From assembly GCF_016918855.1 (NCBI RefSeq), contig NZ_JADKYB010000002.1, positions 1 through 64,000 of the forward strand: a DNA stretch of 64,000 nucleotides. The letters are read 5' to 3'. Numbering within the stretch: position 1 is the stretch's first letter; each line of letters starts with the position of its first letter. The translations under genes and the position numbers were made by a program. The stretch is from Actinacidiphila acididurans (GTDB lineage: Bacteria > Actinomycetota > Actinomycetes > Streptomycetales > Streptomycetaceae). Under the pieces are notes generated by a model. It had not been told where the DNA came from. It made no database searches and was given only the letters and a program-made list of their open reading frames with translations. This document shows, piece by piece, positions 2,743 through 14,447 of this stretch.

Positions 2743-3285
2743 CTACAGCACGTCCTGCAAAAGCTTCAGCGTGCGGGTCAAAAGGGACTGGACGGACGCG
2801 TCGGCGACTTCCGGGAGCTGGGGGTAGGGGAACCAGCGGAGGTCGAGGGATTCGTCGCTGATGTGGGGGGTGGCGTCGGCGGGGGCGAGGGCGGCGTATT
2901 GGACGTCGAGGTGCCAGGCGCAGGGGGTGAGGTGGCGGTCGAGGGTGACGGGGGCGGGGGCGAGGAGGCGCAGGCCGGGGATGCCGGACTCCTCGGTGGC
3001 CTCGCGGAGGGCGGCGGCAGCCAGGGAGGAGTCCTCGGGTTCGCAGTGGCCGCCCATCTGGAGCCATTGACGCAGCTTGGCGTGGAGGGTGAGCAGGACG
3101 CGCTCGCGCTCCGGGTCGATGACCAGGGCGCTGGCGGTCAGGTGGCCCTCGGCGCAACGCTTCCAGATGCCGTCGGGGTGGGTGGCGAGGTGCGCCAGGT
3201 ATTCCTGGCGCAGCTTCTCCCGGGCGGGGTCGGGCGCGGTCCAGTCCTGAAGGACGCGCACCGCGTCCGCGTGCAGGTCGCTCAC
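2743..3285 (-). CDS. NUDIX hydrolase
   Basis: A 180-residue NUDIX-fold hydrolase. The Nudix box is visible around residues 90-112: G-x5-E with GGHCEPEDSS, then REATEESGI, the REx2E(E)xG(I/L) metal-binding core. These enzymes cleave nucleoside diphosphates linked to another moiety; the substrate cannot be read from the sequence. The start is the GTG at 3285, which overlaps the TGA of the upstream metalloprotease-like gene by four bases (GTGA), implying translational coupling. Longer in-frame extensions run antisense to that gene and are not credible. The pairing with the upstream gene recalls the mycobacterial neighbourhood where a NUDIX gene lies close to the homologue. Confidence 0.9.
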   Translation of the reverse strand: MSDLHADAVRVLQDWTAPDPAREKLRQEYLAHLATHPDGIWKRCAEGHLTASALVIDPERERVLLTLHAKLRQWLQMGGHCEPEDSSLAAAALREATEESGIPGLRLLAPAPVTLDRHLTPCAWHLDVQYAALAPADATPHISDESLDLRWFPYPQLPEVADASVQSLLTRTLKLLQDVL

Positions 3286-4727
3286 TTGCCGGAGTCGCCC
3301 TCGCCGTCCGTGTCCTGACCGTCCTCGTCGGTGGCGGCCTCGCGGCGCTTGCGTTCGATCTCCTCCTGGGCGGCGTCGCCGAGGATGCGGTCGAGTTCGG
3401 CGACGTCGAAGGCCTCGCGGTGCACGAAGCCGTCCGGGTCGTCGAGGTCGGCCGCGGTGGGCAGCATGTCCGGGTGCGCCCAGAGGCCGTCGCGTCCCTC
3501 CATGCCGCGCGCGTCGGTCAGGGAAGCCCACAGCCGGGAGGCGTCGCGCAGCCGGCGCGGCCGCAGTTCGAGGCCGACCAGGGTGGCGAAGGTCTGCTCG
3601 GCGGGACCGCCGGAGGCGCGGCGGCGGCGCAGGGTCTCGCGCAGCGCGCCGGCGGACGGCAGGTGCGGGGCCGCGGCGGCGTGCACCACCGCGTCGACCC
3701 AGCCCTCCACGAGGGCGAGCGCGGTCTCCAGGCGGGCCAGCGCGGCCTTCTGCTCCGGGGTGTCCTCGGGCTGGAACATGCCCTGCTGCAATGCCTCCTG
3801 GAGCTGCTCGGGCTGCGTCGGGTCCAGCTGTCCGACGGCCTCCTCCAGCCGGGAGGTGTCCACCTTGATGCCGCGGGCGTAGCCCTCGACCGCTCCGTAC
3901 AGGTGCGCGCGCAGCCACGGCACGTGGGCGAACAGCCGCTGGTGGGCGGCCTCGCGCAGCGCCAGGTACAGCCGCACTTCCTCCTGCGGGACGCCCAGGT
4001 CCTTGCCGAAGGCGGAGATGTTCGCCGGGAGCAGCGCGGACTTGCCGGCCGGGCCCAGCGGCAGGCCGACGTCGGACGAGCCGAGCACTTCACCGGCGAG
4101 GTTGCCCAGCGCCTGGCCGATCTGCGAGCCGAACATGGCGCCGCCCATCGACCGCATCATGCCGAGCAGCGGGCCGGTCATGGCCTGCATCTCCTCGGGC
4201 ACCACGTCGCCCATGGCGCCGGCCACCCGCTCGGCGACCGGGTCCACCAGCTCCTGCCAGGCGGGCTGGGTGGCCTCCACCCATTCCGCGCGGCTCCAGG
4301 CCACCGCGGTGCCCGAGCCCGACGGGAGCGAGGTGACCCCGTCCAGCCAGAGGTCGGCCAGCCGGACCGCCTCCTCCACCCACGACCGCTCGGCGCGGCT
4401 GACGCTGGCGTCCTTCACCCCGTCCGGGGTGCCCTGGGCCACCGTCTGGCGCGCGATGTCCTTGGCCATGTCCCAGTTCACCGGCCCGCCCTCGTACGAG
4501 AGCATCTGGCCGAGCTGCTGGAACGCGGCTCCGATGTCGTTCGGGTTCAGCGAGCCGAACATGGCCGCGAACGGGTTGTCGCCGCCCGGGCCGAACGGCG
4601 AGCCACCGCCGAAACCGAAGGGGTCGGGCTGTCCGCCGCCCTCGCCGTCACCCTTGCGCTGCTTGCCGTCGTCGCCGTCCTCGGGCTCCTCGGGAGGGAC
4701 GCCGAATCCGAAGGGGATGTCGCTCAC
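3282..4727 (-). CDS. Zinc-dependent metalloprotease-like protein (F420-associated hydrolase family)
   Basis: A 481-residue protein of the actinobacterial family annotated as putative hydrolase or zinc-dependent metalloprotease (TIGR03624 type). The N-terminal 70 residues are a Gly/Pro/Asp-rich linker (FGFGGGSPFGPGG). The conserved body starts near NPFAAMFGSLNPNDIGAAF and includes a Gly/Met-rich stretch (GPLLGMMRSMGGAMFGSQIG) and a REAAHQRLF helix that supplies the HxxF-like motif. The C-terminus is acidic. The GTG at 4727 has GAGGA 6 bp upstream. It is first of a two-gene operon with the NUDIX gene. Enzymatic activity is inferred from family naming; I see no classical HExxH. Confidence 0.8.
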   Translation of the reverse strand: MSDIPFGFGVPPEEPEDGDDGKQRKGDGEGGGQPDPFGFGGGSPFGPGGDNPFAAMFGSLNPNDIGAAFQQLGQMLSYEGGPVNWDMAKDIARQTVAQGTPDGVKDASVSRAERSWVEEAVRLADLWLDGVTSLPSGSGTAVAWSRAEWVEATQPAWQELVDPVAERVAGAMGDVVPEEMQAMTGPLLGMMRSMGGAMFGSQIGQALGNLAGEVLGSSDVGLPLGPAGKSALLPANISAFGKDLGVPQEEVRLYLALREAAHQRLFAHVPWLRAHLYGAVEGYARGIKVDTSRLEEAVGQLDPTQPEQLQEALQQGMFQPEDTPEQKAALARLETALALVEGWVDAVVHAAAAPHLPSAGALRETLRRRRASGGPAEQTFATLVGLELRPRRLRDASRLWASLTDARGMEGRDGLWAHPDMLPTAADLDDPDGFVHREAFDVAELDRILGDAAQEEIERKRREAATDEDGQDTDGEGDSGK

Positions 4728-4921
4728 GGGATTCCTCGGCTCTGTGTCGTAATGGCTGGGTCGTAGTGGCTGGGTCGTAGTCGCTGTGTCGCAGCCCCGC
4801 CGGCTGTGTGCGAGGGCTACGAATCCGGGTCGGCTTTTGTCTGCGGGCTGTACCTCCAGCCTAGACACCTGTCCGGCAGGATGGCTGCGTACATAACTGA
4901 GACAACCGTGGGAGACACCCG

Positions 4922-6025
4922 GTGAGTTCCCCAGAAGCACACGTTCGCCCAGAGCGGAGCGCCCAGCGCCCGGGGACGGGTCCGGTGGTCGCGGTCACCG
5001 GCGCGGCCTCCGGGGTGGGCCACGCGCTGGCGTGCCGGCTCGCCGCGTCCGACCAGGTCAAGAAGGTCGTGGCGATCGACGAGCGGCGGGCGGACGTGCC
5101 GGGGGCCACCTGGCGGGTGCTGGACGTGCGCGACCCCGCGATCGCGGACAAGCTGCGCGGCGCCGACGTGGTGGTGCACCTCGCCCTCGACCTCGACCTG
5201 GACTCCGACCCCAAGGCCCGCTCGGCGTTCAACGTCCGCGGCACCCAGACGGTGCTGACCGCGGCCGCCGCGGCCGGGGTACGGCGGGTGGTGCTGTGCA
5301 CCTCGGCGATGGTCTACGGCGCCCAGGCCGACAACGACGTGCCGCTCGCCGAGGACGCGCCGCTGCGCGCCACCTCCGAGGCGAGCTTCGTGGACGACCT
5401 GCTGGAGATCGAGCGCCTCGGCCGCCGCGCCCCGCGCGCCCACCCCGGCCTCAATGTGACGGTGCTGCGCCCTGCGGTGCTGGTCGGCGGCACCGACACC
5501 GCGCTCACCCGGTACTTCGAGTCGCCGCGGCTGCTGGTGGTGGCCGGCAGCCGGCCGTGCTGGCAGTTCTGCCACGTGGAGGACCTGGTCTCCGCGCTGG
5601 AGTTCGCGGCGCTGGAGAAGGTCGACGGCGAGATGTCGGTCGGCTGCGACGGCTGGCTGGAGCAGGAGGAGGTCGAGGAGCTGACCGGGATCCGGCGGAT
5701 GGAGCTGCCGCCGTCCATCGCCTTCGGCACCGCCTCCCGGCTGCACCGCCTGGGCCTGACCCCCTCGCCGGCCGGCGACCTGGCGTACACCATGCACCCC
5801 TGGGTGGTCAGCGGCAGCCGCCTCCATGACGCGGGCTGGCGGCCGTCCTGGACGAACGAGGAGGTGCTGGCCGAACTGATCACCGAGGTGGCCGGGCGCA
5901 ATTCCGTCGCCGGGCGGCGGCTGGGCCGCAAGGACGCCACCGCCCTCGGCGCGGCCGGCGCCACTGTTGCCCTGGTGGGCGCCGCGGCCGCGGTCCGCCG
6001 GGCTCGCAGACGCAGGGGTATTTAG
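4922..6025 (+). CDS. NAD-dependent epimerase/dehydratase (extended SDR family)
   Basis: A 367-residue extended short-chain dehydrogenase/reductase. The Rossmann dinucleotide motif TGAASGVG sits near residues 27-34, and VVHLAL and the TSAMVYG active-site segment follow in the expected order. An Ala-rich hydrophobic stretch followed by an Arg/Lys-rich end (residues ~340-367) looks like a C-terminal membrane anchor, which is unusual for a soluble sugar epimerase and typical of this actinobacterial subfamily. The substrate is unknown. The start is the GTG at 4922, after GGGAGACACCCG. It is divergent from the metalloprotease-like gene, with about 195 bp between them, and upstream of moaE. Confidence 0.85.
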   Translation: MSSPEAHVRPERSAQRPGTGPVVAVTGAASGVGHALACRLAASDQVKKVVAIDERRADVPGATWRVLDVRDPAIADKLRGADVVVHLALDLDLDSDPKARSAFNVRGTQTVLTAAAAAGVRRVVLCTSAMVYGAQADNDVPLAEDAPLRATSEASFVDDLLEIERLGRRAPRAHPGLNVTVLRPAVLVGGTDTALTRYFESPRLLVVAGSRPCWQFCHVEDLVSALEFAALEKVDGEMSVGCDGWLEQEEVEELTGIRRMELPPSIAFGTASRLHRLGLTPSPAGDLAYTMHPWVVSGSRLHDAGWRPSWTNEEVLAELITEVAGRNSVAGRRLGRKDATALGAAGATVALVGAAAAVRRARRRRGI

Positions 6026-6103
6026 GGGTACGGCGTCGCAGATGCGAGGCCGTTTCGGGGCTGGAATGGAACCGCCTTTCCGTATCGCGGCACATGAGGC
6101 AGC

Positions 6104-6550
6104 ATGAGCCGCATGACGACCGTCCACGACCCCATCCGGCTGCTTTCCGTCCGCGACACGCCCCTGTCGGTGGACGAGGTGTTCGCCGCGGTCGGCGACG
6201 CCGCGGCGGGCGGCACCACGCTCTTCGTCGGCACGGTGCGGGACCACGACGGGCGCCCGGACGCGGAGGTCACCGCCCTCACCTATACGGCGCACCCTTC
6301 CGCCGAGGCGGAGCTGCGCCGGGTGGCGGAGAAGGTGGTCGCGGACTTTCCCGTCAGCGCGCTCGCCGCCGTGCACCGGGTCGGTGAGCTCGCCGTCGGC
6401 GACATAGCGGTCGTGGTCGCCGTTGCCTGCCCGCACCGGGCGGAGGCTTTCGCGGCGAGCAGGCGCTTGATCGACGAGCTGAAAAGTACGGTGCCGATTT
6501 GGAAGCACCAGGTGTTCGGTGACGGCTCCGAGGAGTGGGTGGGGGTCTGA
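6104..6550 (+). CDS. moaE: Molybdopterin synthase catalytic subunit MoaE
   Basis: A 148-residue MoaE, the large subunit that with thiocarboxylated MoaD converts cyclic pyranopterin monophosphate to molybdopterin in the cytoplasm. Family motifs are in order: FVGTVRDHDGR, the central VHRVGELAVGD, the CPHRAEAF helix and the KSTVPIWKHQ segment carrying the active-site lysine. Length is normal for the family. The ATG at 6104 is used here; MTT three codons later is an alternative. No moaD or moaA is nearby, so it acts with partners encoded elsewhere. It follows the SDR gene by about 80 bp on the same strand. Confidence 0.93.
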   Translation: MSRMTTVHDPIRLLSVRDTPLSVDEVFAAVGDAAAGGTTLFVGTVRDHDGRPDAEVTALTYTAHPSAEAELRRVAEKVVADFPVSALAAVHRVGELAVGDIAVVVAVACPHRAEAFAASRRLIDELKSTVPIWKHQVFGDGSEEWVGV

Positions 6551-6712
6551 GCGGGTTGGGCTTCTGGCGGAGCCCGGCTCGGGGGCGGTGATCACCCTCC
6601 GTCGGGGGGATGTGGGGTTGCGTGACCTCGGTGGCGGTATGAACGTGGGGGAGTGGGTGGCTAATCTGCTCATACGTCCGCTTTTGGGGTAGTACGGGGT
6701 CGGGAGTTCGCC

Positions 6713-6952
6713 GTGGGAGCACTCGCTTGGCTGGTCATTCCGATGGTGGCGCTCTGTGCGGCGGCCCTGTGGTCCAAGTGGGCGTCGCGCAACAAGGGGG
6801 CGACCGGGGACGGGGCTTCGCTGGCCGGGTACGAGCGGTTCCGGCAGGCCATGCAGCAGCCGGCCGGGCGGGGCGGGACTGCCCCCGCCGAGGGGCCCTC
6901 GGAAGGGGACGAGGACTCACCCAGGGGCCCGCTGGCCGGTCCGGTCCCGTAG
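6713..6952 (+). CDS. Small membrane-anchored hypothetical protein
   Basis: A 79-residue protein starting at the GTG at 6713. Residues 2-21 form one hydrophobic segment (ALAWLVIPMVALCAAALW), followed by a positively charged turn and a hydrophilic Gly/Pro/Glu-rich tail, so it probably sits in the membrane with the tail in the cytoplasm. It ends only 9 bp before the PDZ protease gene and is on the same strand, so the two are likely co-transcribed. I do not recognise a family. Codon use has the strong third-position GC of its neighbours, which supports coding. Confidence 0.65.
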   Translation: MGALAWLVIPMVALCAAALWSKWASRNKGATGDGASLAGYERFRQAMQQPAGRGGTAPAEGPSEGDEDSPRGPLAGPVP

Positions 6953-6961
6953 ATTCGTCGT

Positions 6962-8038
6962 ATGCCACGCCGCACCGCGACCCTGCTCGCCTCGACCCTG
7001 ACCCTCATAGCGCTGCTGTGCGTGGCACTGCTCGCGCCCACTCCGTACTCGGAGATGTCGCCGGGCCCGACCGTGAACACGCTGGGGGACTACGGCAGCG
7101 ACACGGTGATCCAGATCTCCGGCCACAAGACGTATCCGGCCGACGGGCACCTGAACATGACCACCGTCCGGGTCACCGGCGCCGACTACACCATGAACCT
7201 GGTCGAGGCGTTCATGGGCTGGGTGCGGCACGACGACAAGGTGGTCGAGCACGACACCCTCTACCCGCAGGGGCAGACCGCCCAGCAGGCGGACCAGCAG
7301 AACGCCGAGGAGTTCAGCCAGTCCCAGGACAGCGCCAAGGTGGCCGCGCTCGACGAGCTGCACATCCCGGTGACGTCGCGGGTGATCGTGGCGGCAGTCG
7401 TCAAGGGCGGCGCCTCGGAGGGCGTGCTGCACGCCGGTGACGTGATCAAGGCGGTGGACGGCTCCCCGGTGAACAAGGCCGAGGACGTGGCCCCGCTGGT
7501 CACCAAGCACAAGCCCGGTCAGCGGGTCACCTTCACCGTGGTCAGGGCGGCGGACGCGAAGAACAAGCAGGCCCCCACCCAGCAGGTGACCGTCGTCACC
7601 CGTACCTCGAACGACCAGGGGCCCAAGCGCGCGGTGGTCGGCATCCAGGCCGGCGTCGAGCACACCTTCCCGTTCACCATCGACATCAAGCTGGCCGACG
7701 TGGGCGGCCCCAGCGCCGGCATGATGTTCGCGCTCGGCATCATCGACAAGCTCACCCCGGGCAACCTCACCGGCGGCCAGTTCGTCGCGGGCACCGGGAC
7801 CATAGACGACAGCGGCAAGGTCGGCCCGATCGGCGGCATCAGCCTCAAGACGATCGGCGCGCGCGACAAGGGCGCGAAGTACTTCCTGACCCCGGCCGAC
7901 AACTGCGAGGAAGCCGCGAAGGACATCCCGCACGGCCTCACCCTGGTCAAGGTCTCGACGCTGAACGACGCGATGTCGGCGCTCACCGACATCCGCACCG
8001 GCCACACGTCCGCGCTGCCGAGCTGCGCCAAAGGCTGA
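6962..8038 (+). CDS. PDZ-domain Lon-like serine protease (YlbL family)
   Basis: A 358-residue membrane-anchored S16-type protease. Residues ~7-27 form an uncleaved signal anchor, a PDZ domain covers ~125-200 (VVKGGASEGVLHAGDVIKA), and a Lon-type proteolytic domain covers ~220-345. The Ser-Lys dyad is visible: Ser251 in GGPSAGMMFALG and Lys296 in GGISLKT, with spacing close to that of Lon. It lacks an AAA+ module. Related Bacillus YlbL acts in cell-division regulation, but the substrate here is unknown. Mycobacteria carry the homologue next to UPF0182, as here. Confidence 0.88.
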   Translation: MPRRTATLLASTLTLIALLCVALLAPTPYSEMSPGPTVNTLGDYGSDTVIQISGHKTYPADGHLNMTTVRVTGADYTMNLVEAFMGWVRHDDKVVEHDTLYPQGQTAQQADQQNAEEFSQSQDSAKVAALDELHIPVTSRVIVAAVVKGGASEGVLHAGDVIKAVDGSPVNKAEDVAPLVTKHKPGQRVTFTVVRAADAKNKQAPTQQVTVVTRTSNDQGPKRAVVGIQAGVEHTFPFTIDIKLADVGGPSAGMMFALGIIDKLTPGNLTGGQFVAGTGTIDDSGKVGPIGGISLKTIGARDKGAKYFLTPADNCEEAAKDIPHGLTLVKVSTLNDAMSALTDIRTGHTSALPSCAKG

Positions 8039-8094
8039 CCCCAGGGGCTGACACCGAGGGCTGACGCCCAGGGCCGGCGGGACGGAAACGGACA

Positions 8095-8136
8095 CGGGAC
8101 GGCATCGCGCGGGTCCCCGCGCCGTACGCCGTCCCG
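8095..8136. terminator. Bidirectional hairpin between convergent genes
   Basis: A 9-bp outer stem, CGGGACGGC with GCCGTCCCG, encloses a second inner hairpin, GCGCGGG-TC-CCCGCGC. It lies between the stops of the converging PDZ protease and PPA1309-family genes. Confidence 0.65.
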
Positions 8137-8159
8137 CACCCGTGACGCGGATTACGGGA

Positions 8160-8711
8160 TTACGCGAAGGTCGCCGACAGGGCGTCCGCCAGGCCCGGCA
8201 CCAGGTCGGCGCCGGTGAGCACCTCGGTGGCGGAGTCCTTGTCCCGCAGCCGCACCGCCGACTCGCGGGCGCCGTCGCGCAGCACCGCGACCGTCATGCG
8301 CACCTCCTGCCGGTCCGGGTGGGCGGCCACCCAGGCGGTCAGGGCGGCCTCGTCCAGGTCGCCGGGGATGGCGGCCTCGGCGGACGGCGGCAGCATCAGG
8401 CGTTCCACGGTGAGCGCGCAGCCGGCGATCACCTCCGGCCAGGCGATGGTGGCCAGGAACTCGTCCAGCGGGCGCCCGGGCGGCAGTTCCTCCTGCTCGA
8501 TCGGGGTCAGGCCGGCTTCGGACGGCTCGTCCAGGCCGAGCCGGTCGGCCAGCCCCGGCTCCTGGGCGCGCAGATGCGCGGTGTCGACGAGGGCGAACAA
8601 CCGGGCCGGCTGGTCCCAGCCCAGCCCGGCGGCATAGGTGTCGATCTCCAGGACGGCTCGGGTCAGCGGGCTCGCGGCGAGTGGGGCACCGTCGGGGGTG
8701 GTCTCAGGCAT
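8160..8711 (-). CDS. PPA1309 family protein
   Basis: A 183-residue soluble protein of the actinobacterial PPA1309 family, which has no assigned function. Recognisable features are the N-terminal LTRAVLEIDTYAAGLGWDQP, the EEELPPGRPLDEFLATIAWPE segment and the C-terminal half with PDRQEVRMTVAVLRDGARESAVRLR. It has no signal peptide or membrane helix. The start is the ATG at 8711. It is divergent from UPF0182, with 109 bp between starts, and convergent with the PDZ protease. This arrangement is repeatedly conserved in actinobacteria and suggests a shared process, but nothing in the sequence shows an enzymatic site. Confidence 0.85.
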   Translation of the reverse strand: MPETTPDGAPLAASPLTRAVLEIDTYAAGLGWDQPARLFALVDTAHLRAQEPGLADRLGLDEPSEAGLTPIEQEELPPGRPLDEFLATIAWPEVIAGCALTVERLMLPPSAEAAIPGDLDEAALTAWVAAHPDRQEVRMTVAVLRDGARESAVRLRDKDSATEVLTGADLVPGLADALSATFA

Positions 8712-8820
8712 GGTCACTATCCTGCCTCTTCCCCGGCCGGAATCGGGAACCGGCCAAAGCGTGAGTAAGTTGCACCAGTGGGGTCCGAGCCGGGCACCCG
8801 CGAAACCGTGACATTTCGAG

Positions 8821-11799
8821 GTGTGCGCCTTGGTATTCCAGATGCCGGACCGGAGCGAAGGGCCGCCGGGACCGCGGACGAGGGTCGGCCGTCCGTCACG
8901 GCGCGCGCGGACGCTTCTGGTCACCATCGGCGTCCTCATGGTGCTCATGATCGCCTTCGTGATGTTCGCCGGTTTCTGGACCGACCTGCTGTGGTACCGC
9001 TCGGTGCACTACTCGTCGGTGTTCTCCACCATGGTGTGGACGAAGATCGGGCTGTTCTGCGTCTTCGGACTGGTGATGGCCACGGTCGTGGGCGTCAACA
9101 TCTACCTTGCGTACCGGCTGCGGCCGCCGCTGAGCGCCATGTCGGCCGAGCAGCAGAACCTGGACCGCTACCGGATGGGGATCGCGCCGTACCGGGCCTG
9201 GGCGCTGGCCGGGATCTGCGCCGCGGTCGGGCTGGTGGCCGGCGGCTCGGCGGCCACCCAGTGGCGGCTGTGGCTGCTGACCACCAACGCCACCCCCTTT
9301 CACGTGAAGGACCCGCAGTTCCACAAGGACGTTTCCTTCTACGCCTTCGACCTGCCCTGGTACCGCTTCCTGCTCGGCTTCGGCTTCGCCGCCGTGCTGC
9401 TCTCCCTGGTCGCCGCCCTGCTGGTGCACTACCTCTACGGCGGCCTGCGGCTGACCTCACCCGGCGGCGGCCGGGCCACCGCCGCGGCCACCGGCCACCT
9501 GTCGGTGCTGCTCGGCGTGTTCGTGTCGCTCAAGGCGGTCGCCTACTGGCTGGACCGGTACGGCCTGGCCGTCAAGCACAGCGACTTCAAGGCCACCGAC
9601 AACTGGACCGGCCTGCGGTACGTGGACGCCAACGCCTATCTGCCGGCCAAGACGATCCTGTTCTTCATCGCGGTGATCTGCGCGCTGCTGTTCTTCGCCA
9701 CCTTGTGGCGGCGTACCTGGTCGCTGCCGATGATCGGGCTCGGCCTGCTGGTGCTGTCCGCGATCCTGATCGGCGGCGTGTACCCGGCGCTGGTGCAGAA
9801 GTTCCAGGTGCAGCCCAACGAGGCCGCCAAGGAAGCGCCGTACATCCAGAAGAACATCGACGCCACCAGGGCCGCGTACGGCATCGCCGACAGCAAGGTG
9901 ACGGATTACGCCGGCACCAGCACCGCGTCCGACTCGACGCTGCGGGCCGACAGCAACACCTCCGCGTCGATCCGCGTGCTCGACCCCAATGTGGTCTCGC
10001 CCACCTTCCAGCAGACGCAGCAGTCGCGCGGCTACTACTCCTTCCCCTCCACGCTCGACGTGGACCGCTACACCGACGGCGGCAAGGAGCAGGACACCGT
10101 GGTGGGGCTGCGCGAGCTGAACATCAAGGGCGTGCCCGAGAGCAACTGGATCAACGACCACTTCACGTACACCCACGGCTTCGGCATAGTCGCGGCCAAG
10201 GGCACCGAGGTGACCAGCGGCGGGGGCGCCACGGAGGGCAACGACCCGAACGGCCAGCCCGTCTACACCGAGAAGGACCTGCCGACGACCGGCAGCATGG
10301 GGCCGTACGAGCAGCGCATCTACTTCGGCGAGCAGACCACGCAGTACTCGATCGTGGGCGGGCCGGCCAAGGAACTGGACTACGCGGACAAGCGGTCGTA
10401 CTCCTACCACGGCAAGGGCGGGGTCAGCCTCAGCAACCCGGTGACGCGCGCCGCCTATGCGGTGGCTTTCGGGGAGCCGCAGATCCTGTATTCCGGCGCC
10501 ATAGGTCACGGTTCGAAGATCCTGTACAACCGCACACCCAAGGACCGGGTCGAGGCGGTCGCGCCCTGGCTGACGATCGACGGCGACCCGTACCCGGCGG
10601 TGGTCGACGGGCACATCGTGTGGATCGTGGACGCCTATACGACGACCGACGGCTATCCCTACGCCTCGCGGACCACGCTCGGCGACACCACCACCGACTC
10701 GCTCACCGACGACCAGCGCTCGGTGGTCGCGCAGCAGAACCAGGTCAACTACATCCGCAACTCGGTCAAGGCGACCGTGGACGCCTACGACGGGACGGTG
10801 ACCCTCTACCAGTGGGACACCCAGGACCCGGTGCTCAAGACCTGGATGAAGGCCTTCCCGCACACCGTGCAGCCCAGGAGCGCCATCCCGCCGGACCTGC
10901 TGGCCCACCTGCGCTACCCGCAGGACCTGTTCAAGGTGCAGCGGCAACTGCTGGCCAAGTACCACGTCACCAAGGCGGCGCAGTTCTACGCCGGCAGCGA
11001 GGTGTGGGAGGTGCCCGACGACCCGGCCTCGAAGTCCGGCAAGGCGGTGCCGCCGTACTACCTGAGCCTGAAGATGCCGGGCCAGGACGCCCAGGCGTTC
11101 TCGCTCACCTCCACCTTCACCCCCAACAGCCGCAAGAACCTGGCCGCCTTCGTGGCGGTGGACGCCGACGCCACCAGCCCCGACTACGGCACGATGCGGA
11201 TGCTCAAACTGCCCAGCGACGCGCCGGTGGACGGCCCGCAGCTCGTGCAGAGCAAGTTCAACTCCGACTACGCCCAGTCGATCACCCTGCTGCGCGGCAA
11301 GGACTCCACGATCGAGTACGGCAATCTGCTGACGCTGCCGCTGGACGGGGGGCTGCTGTACGTGGAGCCGGTCTACGTACGCGGCGCCAACACCGACTAC
11401 CCGTTGATGAAGAAGGTGTTCGTCAACTTCAACGGTCAACAGACCGCCCTGGAAGACACCCTCGGCAAGGCACTGGATTCCGCCTTCGGCACGACCGGCG
11501 CCGGCCCGCCCTCCGGGCCCGGTACGGGACCGGGTACGGGAGGCGGCACCGGCACCGGCGGGGGCACGGCGACCAGCCCGCCGCACGCGGCCTCGCCCTC
11601 GCTCCAGGACGCGCTCAACCGCGCGCAACAGGCGTACGACGACGGGCAGCAGGCGCTCAAGGACGGCGACTGGCAGAAGTACGGCGAGGCGCAGAAGCGG
11701 CTCGCGGCGGCCCTGAAGGACGCTCGGGCGGCGGAAAAGGGGACGTCATCCGGCGCATCGGCCTCACCCGCCCCGAAGGCATCGGGAAAGAAGGGCTGA
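8821..11799 (+). CDS. UPF0182 family large membrane protein
   Basis: A 992-residue protein. The N-terminal third has about seven membrane helices (near residues 31-53, 68-98, 122-140, 183-206, 222-245, 277-297 and 302-325). A soluble domain of about 500 residues follows, presumably extracytoplasmic, and then a Gly/Thr/Pro linker and a C-terminal helical tail rich in Ala, Lys and Gln. This is the UPF0182 (COG1615) architecture, restricted largely to actinobacteria and cyanobacteria and without known function. The GTG at 8821 is used because the FQMPDR segment upstream of the ATG at 8842 looks conserved; the ATG remains possible. The stop lies 44 bp before a tRNA gene. Confidence 0.9.
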
Positions 11800-11843: not shown

Positions 11844-11917
11844 CGCGGGGTGGAGCAGCTCGGTAGCTCGCTGGGCTCATAACCCAGAGGTCGCAGGTTC
11901 AAATCCTGTCCCCGCTA
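11844..11917 (+). tRNA. Initiator tRNA-fMet (CAT), copy 1
   Basis: A 74-nt cloverleaf without encoded CCA. The anticodon loop is CTCATAA, closed by CTGGG/CCCAG, so the anticodon is CAT. Two initiator hallmarks are present: a C1-U72 mismatch at the top of the acceptor stem, and three consecutive G-C pairs at the base of the anticodon stem. The T loop is GTTCAAATC. An identical copy lies at 14368. Confidence 0.95.
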
Positions 11918-11923
11918 CGTATC

Positions 11924-14367: not shown

Positions 14368-14441
14368 CGCGGGGTGGAGCAGCTCGGTAGCTCGCTGGGC
14401 TCATAACCCAGAGGTCGCAGGTTCAAATCCTGTCCCCGCTA
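14368..14441 (+). tRNA. Initiator tRNA-fMet (CAT), copy 2
   Basis: Identical over 74 nt to the copy at 11844, including the CAT anticodon, the C1-U72 mismatch and the three G-C pairs of the anticodon stem. The identity extends only about six bases upstream and three downstream, so the flanks have diverged. It has its own promoter and its own terminator. Confidence 0.95.
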
Positions 14442-14447
14442 CGAAAA

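Follow-up and report, generated by a model that had tools for sequence, protein, structure and literature searches.

A YlbL-type PDZ protease gene and a giant UPF0182 gene form a conserved neighbourhood across much of the Actinomycetota

Why should a membrane-anchored protease be encoded next to a giant membrane protein of family UPF0182? The question is raised by a 64,000-nucleotide stretch of Actinacidiphila acididurans (contig NZ_JADKYB010000002.1, positions 1 to 64,000; hereafter the window). A preliminary description of this DNA had seen in it a conserved neighbourhood of two protease-like proteins, one coupled to a NUDIX enzyme, together with PPA1309 and UPF0182 without known function. 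Profile matches in the window showed that all genes it named are real and correctly placed; the list was right as far as it went but omitted two genes between the zincin homologue and the protease, an SDR and a MoaE gene. The features are given below, with start codons of our own choice.

2743..3285, minus strand: NUDIX hydrolase (PF00293, 47.9 bits); the start at 3285 is our reading
3282..4727, minus strand: Zincin_2/TIGR03624 homologue with REAAH instead of HExxH, a probable pseudoenzyme (477 bits Pfam, 413 bits NCBIfam)
4922..6025, plus strand: NAD-dependent epimerase/SDR (PF01370, 67.5 bits)
6104..6550, plus strand: MoaE-like molybdopterin synthase subunit (PF02391, 119 bits)
6962..8038, plus strand: YlbL-type membrane-anchored PDZ and Lon (S16) serine protease (PF13180, PF05362; dyad Ser251/Lys296)
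8160..8711, minus strand: PPA1309 family protein, between protease and UPF0182 (NF040618, 203 bits, cut-off 70)
about 8842..11799, plus strand: UPF0182, seven membrane helices followed by about 640 residues (PF03699, 934.5 bits, cut-off 27)
11844-11918 and 14368-14442: one tRNA-Met gene each (anticodon CAT), both lying downstream of UPF0182

Because the NUDIX start, if at 3285, overlaps the zincin stop codon (3282-3284; overlap of 4 bases), these two genes may be translationally coupled. Upstream of the NUDIX gene, three AIM24-family genes lie in a row on the plus strand (120-2499). In mycobacteria, the genes of the locus presumably carry the numbers Rv3193c-Rv3195.

To see how far the neighbourhood extends, a phylum sample of 119 genomes was searched; it held only 10 genomes of the window's class, and a class sample of 148 genomes was therefore drawn as well, in which protease matches were accepted to E 1e-3, a few of them weak. 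UPF0182 was found in 140 of the class genomes, the protease in 145, TIGR03624 in all 148 (mostly in two copies) and PPA1309 in 93. From the 140 genomes, 80 UPF0182 loci were chosen for family spread and contig size, making 81 with the window. The loci L042, L043, L059 and L060 hold second copies, which score below the other UPF0182 of their own genome. UPF0182 is preceded by the protease gene, in the same orientation, at every one of the 77 primary loci read in the window's class; none of the four second copies of Actinomycetes has a YlbL neighbour. The phylum sample contains 84 genomes with UPF0182, which, less the 10 of the class, leaves 74 from other classes. Fifty of these also have a YlbL-type match (the copy nearest UPF0182 being taken where a genome has several), and both genes lie within 7.3 kb on one strand in 42 of the 50, apart in five and at contig edges in three. 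The nearest match is short or weak in G024, G040, G063 and G080; a full-length copy stands on a different contig in G024 and G063.

As a control, 64 loci of 24 families with 6 kb on each side were compared by a heuristic clustering of neighbour sequences (stop-to-stop frames, named by Pfam from one or two members per cluster). The top upstream cluster occurs in 22 families and the top downstream cluster in seven. The downstream side of UPF0182 is thus not conserved, and the linkage is not general synteny. A scan of named genomes (80 loci, 49 titled Streptomyces) gave three loci, L180, L191 and L193, with the protease near UPF0182 yet on the other strand. In these Actinomadura loci the UPF0182/PPA1309 pair is inverted between the SDR and the MoaE-protease genes, and the cluster is kept.

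The conserved core consists of the YlbL-type PDZ/Lon protease and UPF0182, plus the divergent zincin homologue. The proposed neighbourhood is thus non-random across much of the phylum, but its core is narrower than had been claimed. PPA1309 and NUDIX, listed as if they were fixed members, are not: PPA1309 is present in 48 of the 81 loci, where it separates the protease gene from UPF0182. Its strand is opposite to theirs at 40 of these loci and shared with UPF0182 at eight (L081-L084 and L102-L105, the loci read of family f67, all in the identical place). Matches in the 81 stretches, some of which may stop short, numbered 38 for NUDIX, 34 for SDR, 45 for MoaE and 4 for AIM24, and these four were rejected as core parts on their counts. 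The PPA1309 protein has no hydrophobic stretch; its model (pLDDT 90) gave no clear match in the PDB (Foldseek best E 0.46, VIA best Z 3.6).

The protease carries a single hydrophobic helix (residues 4-30), a PDZ domain and a Lon_C domain, and no AAA+ domain. The numbering Ser251 for its catalytic serine was right (motif GGPS251AG). Ser251 and Lys296 are invariant in 15 aligned rows, and Ser and Lys are present in 174 of 175 copies. Bacillus subtilis YlbL, renamed DdcP in later work, and streptococcal SepM have the same membrane helix, PDZ domain and Lon-type Ser-Lys dyad without an ATPase. The YlbL PDZ structures PDB 2KJP and 2KL1 match the profile. The window protease does not reach the SepM equivalog NF041438 (108.4 bits versus a cut-off of 200). 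Its context is UPF0182, whereas that of Bacillus YlbL is the ylb genes. The corresponding mycobacterial gene is presumably Rv3194c. Published passages treat the Rv3194c product as a serine protease and also assign it an adhesin role (PMC10580313, PMC8875947).

The zincin homologue had been put forward as a second protease-like protein of equal rank. It belongs to the family, above the cut-off in both Pfam and TIGR03624, and by sequence it falls in one family with PDB 3CMN (E 3.4e-23). The zincin-like protein 3CMN, which we take to come from Chloroflexus, has HEMTH where the window protein has REAAH; the zinc motif HExxH is thus absent from the latter. Of the 157 rows of this locus that have a residue at the first motif position, 143 show Arg and 9 show His; most class copies lack HExxH, whereas the second-copy paralogues retain HE..H in 20 of 20 cases. 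Some of the rows with His come from other classes (L211, L212, L226), so the change to Arg probably arose within the phylum. As judged from this motif, the window protein is unlikely to be a catalytic metalloprotease and is a probable pseudoenzyme. The idea of two active proteases at the locus was rejected, the zincin motif being lost.

What, then, is the candidate partner of the protease like? In the AlphaFold2 model of UPF0182 (pLDDT 85.9), the first 344 of 984 residues contain seven long helices; a mixed domain follows, and the C-terminus forms a helical hairpin. The whole protein has a mass of 106.4 kDa and the part from residue 345 has 68.4 kDa; the part beyond the last membrane helix measures 64.9-71.6 kDa in 14 of 15 rows and 60.3 kDa in the remaining one, a second copy. 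A fold search with the whole model gave a best Foldseek E of 1.1 and a best VIA Z of 7.5 over the C-terminal hairpin only, a result with no bearing on fold novelty.

Published relatives can be proposed. We take DIP0733 (67-72p) of Corynebacterium diphtheriae and Cg0896 of C. glutamicum to be UPF0182 proteins. The peptides YDGTVE and DPVLKA, read from two primers printed for Cg0896 and DIP0733, can both be placed in one conserved UPF0182 stretch; at six residues each, where a shuffled sequence scored up to 5/6, they are a weak but consistent sign of such membership. According to the passages concerned, seven helices at the N-terminus of DIP0733 are followed by a long C-terminal part (PMC6123952, PMC8952647) with a terminal coiled coil (PMC6123952); UPF0182 shares the seven helices and the long C-terminal part. 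DIP0733 has been studied as an adhesin and virulence factor, and the passages on it draw no connection to its gene neighbours. Since there is published work on DIP0733 and Cg0896, as well as a screen hit for Rv3193c (below), 'without known function' was too strong.

DIP0733 was first detected as polypeptides of 67 and 72 kDa, as a passage of the review PMC6605028 relates, and the predicted 65-72 kDa fragment fits these bands. Unspecific degradation, the action of another protease or abnormal migration could also account for them. For a Syntrophomonas UPF0182 of 106 kDa predicted mass, the relevant excerpt of PMC3582634 gives a band at 100 kDa, so members of the family need not run fast on gels. 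UPF0182 is also abundant in the biofilm matrix of Micrococcus luteus (PMC9530943); the same passage names membrane proteins such as ATP synthase alongside it, and the finding is therefore no proof of release. Elsewhere, single passages name a UPF0182 protein as part of the M. smegmatis ClpC1 interactome (PMC10433963) and list one for C. pseudotuberculosis (PMC5361795).

The protease and UPF0182 genes of several families stand about 3 kb apart, and the DNA in between encodes a histidine kinase whose N-terminus forms a membrane and sensor part, followed by HAMP, PAS, HisKA and HATPase domains. Pfam found HisKA and HATPase in 14 of 14 kinases and HAMP in 13. Neighbour cluster c7 mixes in unrelated frames, so the kinase claim rests instead on this domain scan, a profile of the sensor half and position checks. 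The profile matched 15 of the 148 class genomes and 15 of the 119 phylum genomes, the ten genomes common to both samples being negative. In 29 of the 30 genomes with a match, the start of the kinase gene lies 13-667 bases behind the protease gene, in the same orientation; the exception, G002, is a weak partial match. In 24 of these 29, the contig goes on to UPF0182. The contig ends first in G249, G239, G179 and G058, and G195 is a true exception, with UPF0182 absent from the 6.7 kb after the kinase. With the same profile, no kinase was detected in the window's genome or in ten other sampled genomes of its family. Regulated proteolysis of the DegS and site-2 type likewise has a PDZ envelope protease and a possible signalling partner; unlike in those systems, the partner here is UPF0182 and a sensor kinase gene is present in some lineages.

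Other genes accompany UPF0182 at deep-branching loci of other classes: MreB in 14 loci of 10 families, 13 of them on the UPF0182 strand, and DivIVA-domain genes in 11 loci of eight families. At L194, L195, L199, L203, L208 and L227, the gene of a protein of about 400-550 residues (cluster c35) separates kinase and UPF0182; L195 supplied the only member scanned, which had no Pfam match.

Can either partner do without the other? Ten class genomes with seemingly one partner were inspected, and in nine of them the contig ends beside that partner. In the tenth, G256, UPF0182 stands beside the zincin gene with the protease absent alongside; in L182, too, the zincin homologue adjoins UPF0182 with no protease between. 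Neither UPF0182 nor a clear YlbL was found by the class-sample profile searches in G155 and G177, and the zincin read in G177 is an HEETH paralogue. Among the 74 UPF0182 genomes of other classes, the profile search listed no YlbL-type gene in 24, and six of six UPF0182 regions read on plasmids or chromids have no YlbL neighbour. Since UPF0182 occurs in this way, it does not need the protease, and an obligate protease substrate was rejected as a role for it. Plasmid UPF0182 genes of Paraburkholderia, Bradyrhizobium (root nodule) and Haloferax (L234, L235, L237) are examples lacking a YlbL neighbour. Family f66, with genomes of 1.2-2.2 Mb, and several MAG contigs include shortened proteases without PDZ; ten such short proteases, three of them from f66, retain Ser and Lys next to UPF0182.

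The linkage counts bear out the earlier suggestion that the protease-UPF0182 pair is the heart of the neighbourhood and UPF0182 a candidate substrate or partner. The reading we prefer takes a protease and its target in the cell envelope as the core. UPF0182 would be held by its seven N-terminal helices, with the 65-72 kDa domain taken as lying outside, and the protease, anchored by its one helix, would expose PDZ domain and Ser-Lys site on the same face as that domain. A cut at about residues 345-380, within the variable stretch that follows helix 7 or close to it, would release the outer domain or tune its amount when the envelope grows or is stressed; the sensor kinase that some lineages encode in the same gene string may report the state of the pair. 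Trimming of UPF0182 is the simplest account because it ties together linkage, catalytic conservation, geometry and band size. The full proposal, from a cut beside the membrane to the kinase as reporter, is held tentatively, as a possibility somewhat short of an even chance. A wider version of it would be an ancient envelope-signalling module of the phylum, in which UPF0182 is released at growth sites marked by MreB and DivIVA and read by a dedicated kinase, many Actinomycetes having later dropped the kinase and kept the dead zincin and often PPA1309 as cytosolic parts; this we regard as improbable.

Against UPF0182 as the target stands the fact that B. subtilis YlbL has another substrate, YneA, which it degrades after DNA damage, as passages of PMC6051672 describe. 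The protease of our locus might then act in checkpoint recovery as DdcP does, by destroying a small division inhibitor, with UPF0182 as its membrane partner, adaptor or brake and not its substrate. Such a role would agree with an excerpt of PMC8093794, in which a mutant lacking normal function of the divisome protein Rv0954 shows an under-representation of insertions in Rv3193c. It would also agree with the make-up of the window protease, which like YlbL combines one membrane helix, a PDZ domain and the Lon dyad, with a UvrD-type helicase cluster near the locus (20 loci, 9 families) and with the MreB and DivIVA genes at deep-branching loci. However, UPF0182 is not known to have a place in the Bacillus scheme and the 67-72 kDa bands are left unexplained, and we find this role rather doubtful.

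The two proteins may also be independent envelope factors joined by operon inheritance or co-expression only, for example under acid stress. That UPF0182 is common without YlbL speaks for independence, as does the 2-fold rise of Cg0896 at pH 6 reported in a passage of PMC2627906; yet the linkage outlasts gaps of up to 7.3 kb, the rearrangement in Actinomadura and the small genomes of f66, while the downstream neighbours of UPF0182 are not kept, and we regard such independence as unlikely. Least probable of all is UPF0182 as a transporter or export-type channel that the protease keeps in repair. It has seven long helices in the model to recommend it, and a Leptospirillum UPF0182 occurs with spermidine genes, a context its authors, in the passage concerned, report in many organisms (PMC7231039); a mechanosensitive channel gene lies just upstream of a clostridial UPF0182, and K+ channel genes lie about 5 kb from a Rhodococcus plasmid UPF0182. 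Against a transporter speak the lack of a fold match in the searches given above and neighbours of UPF0182 that vary between places.

Protease, UPF0182, PPA1309 and zincin homologue are known families. As far as our searches go, the combination of genes, the kinase and the dead zincin are undescribed: a literature search of a collection with few subscription journals found no paper joining UPF0182 with a YlbL-type protease, and none of the papers it brought up, by queries that did not pair UPF0182 with a kinase, joins it with this kinase. UPF0182 is large and present in nearly all class genomes, and it has a probable relative in a pathogen that has been investigated as a surface factor. Conserved neighbours across much of the phylum suggest that this giant protein is trimmed or controlled by the protease at the cell surface. 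With a candidate protease partner, a predicted fragment size that agrees with bands in the literature and a kinase largely confined to the neighbourhood of the protease gene, an uncharacterised family becomes a testable question.

Besides the protease gene of the locus, the window's genome carries a second YlbL/Lon-like gene (G000:C12:103255-104025), which fits the two ends of the profile and not its middle, the PDZ part. Similar paired YlbL/Lon-like matches are present in G023 and G107.
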